Shown here in pieces: positions 32,266 through 33,559 of a stretch of DNA of 38,369 nt (position 1 is the first letter of the stretch; every line of letters begins with the position of its first letter). Source of the DNA: Candidatus Aenigmarchaeota archaeon LH_S6 (GTDB taxonomy: Archaea; Aenigmatarchaeota; Aenigmatarchaeia; QMZS01); NCBI GenBank assembly GCA_023659935.1, contig JAGXOK010000005.1:1-38369 (forward strand). The letters are read 5' to 3'. The position numbers and the translations under genes are program-made. The notes below the pieces were generated by a model. It was given only the letters and a program-made list of their open reading frames with translations, was not told where the DNA came from and ran no database searches.

Positions 32266-32703
32266 TTATTTTTTTAAGTTTCGAATTAACATCTTTATCT
32301 CATCCAAATCTTTCTGCATATCTTCAACTTCTCTCTCAGCCTCTTTGTCAACCAGATAATCCCTCTCAACCTTTACTTTTTCTTTTTCTTCTTCCCTATT
32401 CTGGCTCATCAAAATTATTGGAGCTTGTACTGCTGCCAGACAGGAAAGAGTCAGGTTAAGAATAATAAAAGGCCATGGATCCCAACGATAAAAGTATGCA
32501 GTGAGATTGAGGTAAATCCAAACAGATATAAATATAGATAAAAGAAATATAAAAGACCAGGAACCACAAAATCTTGTTAATTTATCTGCTGCCTTTTGCC
32601 CAAGAGTTAATTTTCTTTTGTGCAATAAATGGCTATCTTTCTCAAGTTTATTGTTTATCCTTGAAAATTTTTTTTTGCCAGAATTTTCTTTTTTCTTAAC
32701 CAT
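32266..32703 (-). CDS. DUF1003-family membrane protein
   Basis: TRFCGSWSFIFLLSIFISVWIYLNLT...DPWPFIILNLTLSCLAAVQAPIILMSQNREEEKEK. Confidence 0.85.
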   Translation of the reverse strand: MVKKKENSGKKKFSRINNKLEKDSHLLHKRKLTLGQKAADKLTRFCGSWSFIFLLSIFISVWIYLNLTAYFYRWDPWPFIILNLTLSCLAAVQAPIILMSQNREEEKEKVKVERDYLVDKEAEREVEDMQKDLDEIKMLIRNLKK

Positions 32704-32719: not shown

Positions 32720-32949
32720 TGTTGGGAGAGGGGTTTGATGAAGGAGATTTTTTACCCAAAAAAATCTTACCCTCGCTCTCTGCGTTTCTCAGCGCTAAAA
32801 ATCATCGAATTCTCTCAAAGCTCACATTTTTCTTTTAGTTTTGGTTTTTAAAGGTTCCGAGCCCTTTTTTTGGCTCGAGCCTTTTTAACCAATCCAACCA
32901 ATAAAAGGCTCGTATGAGCGCAGCGCCTTAGCCACTAGACTACCCCAAC
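32720..32949 (-). tRNA. tRNA(CAT) (Met elongator or Ile2) with a 127-nt anticodon-loop intron and a 30-nt T-loop intron
   Basis: GTTGGGG-TA-GTCT-AGTGGCTA-AGGC-G-CTGCG-CTCATA[intron 32912-32786]A-CGCAG-AGAGC-GAGGG-T[intron 32768-32739]TCAAAC-CCCTC-TCCCAAC-A. All stems pair after excision. Confidence 0.85.
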
Positions 32950-32977: not shown

Positions 32978-33559
32978 TTAATATCCTTTTCTTGCATCAG
33001 AAAAATCAGGTGCTTTATCCTGTTCTTCAAAATTAAATTCCTGCCAGTCTCTTTCAGCACTTTTTGTCGGTTTTTTATCTTCTGATTTCTTTTCTTCTGT
33101 TTTAACTTCTTTTCCCTCCTCTTTTTTAGATTCTGCAGAATTTTCTATCCCTCTCTTAATTTTCTCTGCAAGTTGTGGTAAATCTTCTCTTTTTACTTCA
33201 ATTTTTACGAGACTCTGGATTGGTAAACCTTTATCCCCTTCAAACCTTGGAATTATATGAAAATGTAGATGTGGTATCTCTTGACCAGCCAATTTTCCAT
33301 CATTTATTCCTATATTGTAATCTGTTGTTTCAACAATTTTAGGAATAACTTTTGCCAATTTAAAAATCACCAAAAACAGTTCTTTTGCCTCATTTTCTGG
33401 CATTTCTTCCAGTTTCTGATAATGCTTTTTTGGAATTATGATTGTATGTCCTAAGGAAGAAGGATTTACATCAAGAAAAGCAATGTTTAAGGAATCCTCA
33501 TAAACTTTGAGGGTAGAAATTTCTCCATTTGCAATTTTACAAAATAGACACTCTACCAT
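32978..33559 (-). CDS. HIT family protein
   Basis: CLFCKIANGEISTLKVYEDSLNIAFLDVNPSSLGHTIIIPKKHY...IPHLHFHIIPRFEGD. Confidence 0.93.
   Translation of the reverse strand: MVECLFCKIANGEISTLKVYEDSLNIAFLDVNPSSLGHTIIIPKKHYQKLEEMPENEAKELFLVIFKLAKVIPKIVETTDYNIGINDGKLAGQEIPHLHFHIIPRFEGDKGLPIQSLVKIEVKREDLPQLAEKIKRGIENSAESKKEEGKEVKTEEKKSEDKKPTKSAERDWQEFNFEEQDKAPDFSDARKGY

Follow-up and report, generated by a model that had tools for sequence, protein, structure and literature searches.

Can a tRNA(CAU) gene that is interrupted twice, in the anticodon loop and again in the T-loop, be a working gene in a DPANN archaeon, and why is the first of its introns so long? The locus that raises these questions lies in a stretch of 38,369 nucleotides (hereafter the window), which is contig 55 of the 728,758-base, 71%-complete assembly GCA_023659935.1 (G000). 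Because its aIF2 is 96% identical to that of Ca. Aenigmarchaeota LH_S4, we place the genome in the Ca. Aenigmarchaeota (DPANN), in line with the DPANN-like character ascribed to it by the first-pass annotation. The tRNA precursor comprises 229 nt of the minus strand (32949-32721), with the discriminator A73 at 32720; its two neighbours, likewise on the minus strand, encode a HIT-domain protein (32978-33559) and a DUF1003 protein (32266-32703). Excision of both introns yields GTTGGGGTAGTCTAGTGGCTAAGGCGCTGCGCTCATAACGCAGAGAGCGAGGGTTCAAACCCCTCTCCCAAC-A, that is, 72 nt plus A73, with the anticodon CAT and every cloverleaf stem paired. The first-pass annotation had proposed that removing 32912-32786 and 32768-32739 would leave a paired 73-nt CAT tRNA, which is correct to the base, and that scanners expecting one canonical intron would miss the T-loop split, as proved true: ARAGORN detected nothing in the window, and nor did Rfam at gathering score. 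The parts of the gene, with the evidence for each in brackets, are as follows.

32720..32949, minus strand: tRNA(CAU) gene with two introns, A73 at 32720 (excision, orthologs in 10 genomes, covariation)
32913..32949, minus strand: exon 1, positions 1-37 (spliced cloverleaf)
32786..32912, minus strand: intron 1, 127 nt, at position 37/38 (excision, ortholog alignment)
32869..32912, minus strand: hairpin element, 44 nt, whose first base is the first base of intron 1 (repeat searches)
32786..32824, minus strand: conserved core of intron 1, TGAGCTTTGAGAGAATTCGATGATTTTTAGCGCTGAGAA (ortholog comparison)
32769..32785, minus strand: exon 2, positions 38-54 (spliced cloverleaf)
32739..32768, minus strand: intron 2, 30 nt, in the T-loop at 54/55 (excision, fold)
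32767-32745, minus strand: h' hairpin of intron 2 (fold)
32721..32738, minus strand: exon 3, positions 55-72 (spliced cloverleaf)

Orthologs were collected by a DNA search of relatives and by reading of the matches; eight of the genomes that yielded them are congeners, and the remainder represent two further genera in the family. Both introns are present in all 11 genomes (G000 and the 10 congeneric or confamilial ones), with lengths and sequences that differ among the 10 relatives. Intron 1 lies at 37/38 and measures 41-141 nt; intron 2 lies in the T-loop and measures 24-105 nt, at 54/55 in six genomes, at 53/54 or 54/55 in four, and at an exact site that is ambiguous between 56/57 and 60/61 in G010. 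When the spliced tRNAs were aligned (9 distinct sequences, 189 base-pair cells), standard pairs made up 98.4% of the cells, a value as high as this being reached in none of 500 shuffles, and five stem pairs varied on both sides (8 cells), again matched by 0 of the 500. Since ortholog introns occur in 10 genomes and the stems covary beyond all shuffles, the gene is not a product of chance. The tRNA(CAU) gene is real, and the whole family shares its double interruption, which is of a kind already known.

The repeat-rich introns, together with a genome completeness of just 71%, could be taken as signs of a pseudogene or a decaying, repeat-invaded tRNA whose work is done by another, intact CAU tRNA. 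We consider this very improbable, however, as all the stems are kept in the 11 genomes, with compensatory changes, and the exons are the most conserved part of the gene. Moreover, a search with the mature sequence found no intact elongator copy in the 71%-complete genome itself, and in those congeners that match, the best match is interrupted at position 37-39. A search of the genus for an unsplit CAT anticodon arm returned three pattern matches only, none of which had tRNA context on reading. The first-pass annotation had associated a pseudo-tRNA with an intact CAT tRNA elsewhere and junctions unfit for the bulge-helix-bulge (BHB) motif, and had asked for this motif at both junction pairs; the genome yielded no such intact elongator copy, and BHB-type pairing was found at both.

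Which tRNA(CAU) the gene encodes is a separate question. A separate gene (L038 in G007), with A1 and a GGG/CCC anticodon stem, encodes the initiator tRNA, and from the features below we infer that the present gene is most likely the elongator tRNA-Met. The Ile2 isoacceptor, which bears agmatidine at C34, also has a CAU anticodon; G1-C72 and A73 are compatible with both identities, and our comparison lacks an identified Ile2 gene. We nevertheless regard an Ile2 identity as unlikely. The core of intron 1 is complementary to the anticodon loop in such a way that a D'-like box has C34 at its N+5 place, a layout also seen in the tRNA-Trp intron of the genus, and guides for 2'-O-methylation of C34 are on record for elongator Met and Trp (PMC2584109).

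At the first junction pair of the probable elongator tRNA-Met, a central helix H of 4 bp joins exon CUCA (32918-32915) to intron UGAG (32791-32788), and the 3-nt bulges UA|C and AA|A, cut after the second base, reproduce both observed ends. The intron-side strand is UGAG or UGGG in 9 of the 11 genomes and CGGG in G002 and G003. No h' helix forms between the ends of intron 1, so the motif has the relaxed hBH form. For intron 2, the G006 and G004 copies fold into a near-canonical motif, in which an H of GAGG/CCUC is accompanied by a long h' and by GUA as the 3-nt 5' bulge; with the 3' bulge read as AAU the standard cut falls at T54|T55, giving exactly TTCAAAT. The window copy is a variant, with an H of 5 bp (GAGGG/CCUUC) and a 2-nt bulge. 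A competing fold, combining exon GGCGCU with intron AGCGCU and exon GCUCAU with intron AUGAGC, also scores well.

The enzyme expected to cut these motifs, a PF01974 endonuclease, is encoded by one gene in each of the eight congeners (8/8) and was not found in the 71%-complete MAG itself; a family profile search detected neither a second paralogue nor a beta subunit in the genus. It is alpha-type, 197 aa long in G002 and closest to the alpha proteins of M. jannaschii and N. equitans, and the Tyr, His and Lys positions are conserved in the family. We also looked for the loop of the ARMAN/Crenarchaea-type endonucleases, and there is no insertion at the place of ARMAN-2 Y160/K161 (PMC12397907); instead, the loop that leads from the catalytic Tyr to the catalytic His is 6 residues longer, a length shared with N. 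equitans alpha. As alpha4 endonucleases are described as requiring a canonical BHB (PMC4033280) and the motifs here are partly relaxed, the processing of both introns is not fully explained.

What, then, makes intron 1 so long? In the DNA search of relatives its first 44 nt matched dozens of other places, which revealed a repeat with the consensus NRAGCCUUUU-N17-AAAAGGCUYN'-AGCCAAA, a hairpin with a 10-bp stem followed by AGCCAAA. Copies with the exact stem number 17 in G000, 30 and 21 in its sister genomes G005 and G007, 4 in G002 (one of them with an unrelated-looking loop), 1 in G001 and 0 in four congeners, and the reversed pattern, used as a control, gave 0 matches. Stem positions 1 and 2 covary strongly (UA/CG/AU and AU/GC), with changes on both sides in 34 cells, a number that none of 500 shuffles reached. 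Intron 1 is thus long because it opens, right at its 5' splice site, with this 44-nt dispersed hairpin repeat. This is the new part of the analysis, unseen by the first-pass annotation, and it is where the hairpin sits, at 5' splice sites, that should interest specialists.

In at least 10 tRNA species, and likewise in 23S rRNA, there are introns in which the repeat begins no more than 1 nt from the 5' splice site. Such introns occur in the anticodon loop of elongator Met, Gly-UCC, Trp, Arg-UCU and His; in the D-loop of Ala-GGC and Phe, and of Thr-UGU with a degenerate copy; and in the T-loop of Asn, initiator Met, Gln, Val-UAC and others. In the 23S rRNA gene (L055; G000:C2, about 2616-2689), an intron near GAGAGTACATA|TCGACGG opens with the CGAGGC variant of the repeat. 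Where the flanks were read, the intronic copies were always in the sense strand, and their offset from the 5' splice site was 0-1 nt in most cases and about 4-5 in G007 Gln (L128) and L141. The offset is 0-1 in about 11 of the 13 different interrupted RNAs, for which the probability under uniform placement is ~1e-12 with approximate intron lengths; since the cases were collected by searching for the repeat, this statistic tests position inside the intron, not frequency. Ties of the repeat to start codons (8/87 versus 8.8% at random positions) and to stop codons (12/87 versus 7%) were at or near chance.

The repeat, with its 17, 30 and 21 copies in G000, G005 and G007, is a dispersed multicopy palindrome, as MITE and REP elements are. 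This raises the possibility that it is an ordinary element of this kind, landing wherever it is neutral, and that its position at splice sites is meaningless. Copies also lie between genes; two are beside or inside the repeats of a CRISPR-type array (L053, G000:C11:32900-36000; repeat like GTTTTAGAGATAGGTCCAGTAAAATAAGGATTGAAAC), and another (L052, G000:C33:32308) splits an apparent DDE-type transposase gene. We considered whether this last copy could be an mRNA intron, but it lies in reverse orientation and so reads as an insertion. In addition, copies L059/L066 are flanked by 15-nt direct repeats (TAAAATCAACACAGT) resembling target-site duplications, copy L073 by diverged 22-nt direct repeats, and G000 encodes a Y1 transposase. 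Neutral landing is a serious possibility, if somewhat short of even. Against it, some 11 of the 13 interrupted RNAs have the start of the repeat no more than 1 nt away from their 5' splice site, and in these RNAs its orientation is always sense. Flanking direct repeats, furthermore, are found at few copies only; as a general rule target-site duplication did not hold, since few loci lay above control when tandem arrays and CRISPR repeats were excluded. The Y1 transposase, for its part, does not track the copies (G007 has 21 copies and 0 Y1, G006 has 6 Y1 and 0 copies), and a link to an IS200/IS605-type Y1 transposase was rejected, there being no correlation with copy number.

The distribution of the repeat among close relatives bears on the history of the introns. 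In G001, G003, G004, G006, G007 and G008 intron 1 of elongator Met has the core and lacks the repeat, indicating that the core is older than the repeat and therefore that the repeat at least remodels introns. The Gly-UCC anticodon loop has no intron in G001, G004 and G008, a 28-nt intron without the repeat in G003, and an intron that begins with the repeat in G000, G005 and G002, which makes the genus a comparative system for intron gain and remodelling. Going further, we tentatively raise the rather speculative idea that the repeat could be a mobile intron module, which for BHB introns of tRNA and rRNA genes either inserts at the 5' splice site or brings that site along and supplies the intron-side helix, and that in this way, with an alpha-only, relaxed endonuclease, it might seed or remodel introns genus-wide. 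Both introns of the G010 tRNA-Met (L037) hold a different hairpin, TTTGATGGAACTTTTT..AAAAGTTCCAAAGAAA, which suggests that other hairpin families also colonise introns. The origin and spread of archaeal tRNA introns is the open question on which the repeat bears, and a 2014 review called for snapshots of tRNA intron insertion events (PMC4033280).

The older, 3' part of intron 1 could have a function of its own. Its UGAGC is invariant in the 11 introns and complementary to exon G31-A35, raising the possibility that the intron is retained as a box C/D-type guide for 2'-O-methylation of C34 in the same tRNA. With the UUGA (or AAGA/GAGA) after UGAGC as D' box, C34 falls at N+5, the fifth paired base; a GAUGA-like box lies downstream, and the tRNA-Trp intron of the genus is laid out alike, with a perfect CUGA in G007. 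In Haloferax, C34 methylation is guided by the Trp intron and, for elongator Met, by a separate sRNA (PMC2584109, PMC4090602). On the other hand, there is no upstream box C (RUGAUGA), the place of the C'-like G is taken by G, A, C or U, 5 of 11 introns have CUGG or CCGG instead of the D box CUGA, and the Rfam C/D models gave no match. The boxes being incomplete, we rejected a full box C/D sRNA reading, and the lack of box C together with the degenerate D box leads us to regard the C34 guide as a doubtful candidate.

Double interruption is not peculiar to tRNA(CAU). The window contains a second two-intron gene, tRNA-Phe(GAA), at 11877-11728 of the minus strand, whose spliced 73-mer plus A73 forms a perfect cloverleaf and whose introns are these:

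11854-11843, minus strand: D-arm intron of tRNA-Phe(GAA), 12 nt
11805-11742, minus strand: T-loop intron of tRNA-Phe(GAA), 64 nt

The two-intron pattern is thus general beyond tRNA(CAU), with Phe-GAA as the second case, a generality that the first-pass annotation also missed. The Rfam tRNA model finds 11 genes in the genome, and all those parsed by eye carry insertions, so automatic tRNA counts for the phylum are too low. TTAT or TAT directly precedes most of the tRNA genes read in G000, G005 and G006, possibly reflecting a fixed promoter distance.

Taken together, the locus is very probably a Ca. Aenigmarchaeota gene for a functional elongator tRNA-Met (CAU), with two BHB-type introns, the first of which consists of a core and a 5' hairpin repeat. 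The gene would be transcribed as the 229-nt precursor, from which the archaeal tRNA-splicing endonuclease would remove the BHB-type introns at 37/38 and at T-loop 54/55, and a putative RtcB-type ligase would then join the exons. The conserved 3' core of intron 1 provides the BHB half that contains the 3' splice site, together with the anticodon-loop complement. The variable 5' part appears to have been replaced or extended in this sublineage by the 44-nt hairpin repeat, its base placed exactly at the 5' splice site, where the hairpin probably provides a portable helix on the intron side of the 5' bulge.

Several known systems share features with this gene. Like the tRNA-Trp intron of Haloferax and Pyrococcus, intron 1 is antisense to its own anticodon loop and sets C34 at N+5 (PMC4090602, PMC2584109); it differs in being an elongator Met intron with incomplete boxes, in which a guide role is only a candidate. 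Like REP/MITE palindromes, the repeat is short, dispersed and sometimes tandem (PMC3733652), although its placement at RNA 5' splice sites is strict and no GTAG/CGTC tag or linked transposase was seen with it. N. equitans and ARMAN-1/2, likewise of DPANN lineage with more than one intron per tRNA, are listed with multi-intron tRNAs (PMC4033280); the first-pass annotation was therefore right about the DPANN genome, but the multiple introns it found notable there were already on record. Their endonucleases are (alpha-beta)2 or epsilon2, whereas here just an alpha-type enzyme, without the ARMAN loop, was found. Similar introns in different tRNAs are known and resemble the present case, except that here the 44-nt 5'-splice-site hairpin is common, not the whole intron, and it also occurs outside tRNAs. 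A further parallel is found in the Thermoproteales, with up to three introns per tRNA gene and 0.84 on average (Sugahara 2008; PMC8450103): there too BHB-type introns lie at 37/38 as well as at non-canonical sites, the T-arm among them, and simple scanners miss them. What sets the present genes apart is that they belong to a DPANN phylum and that the 5' ends of their introns carry a dispersed hairpin repeat which is present outside RNA genes too.
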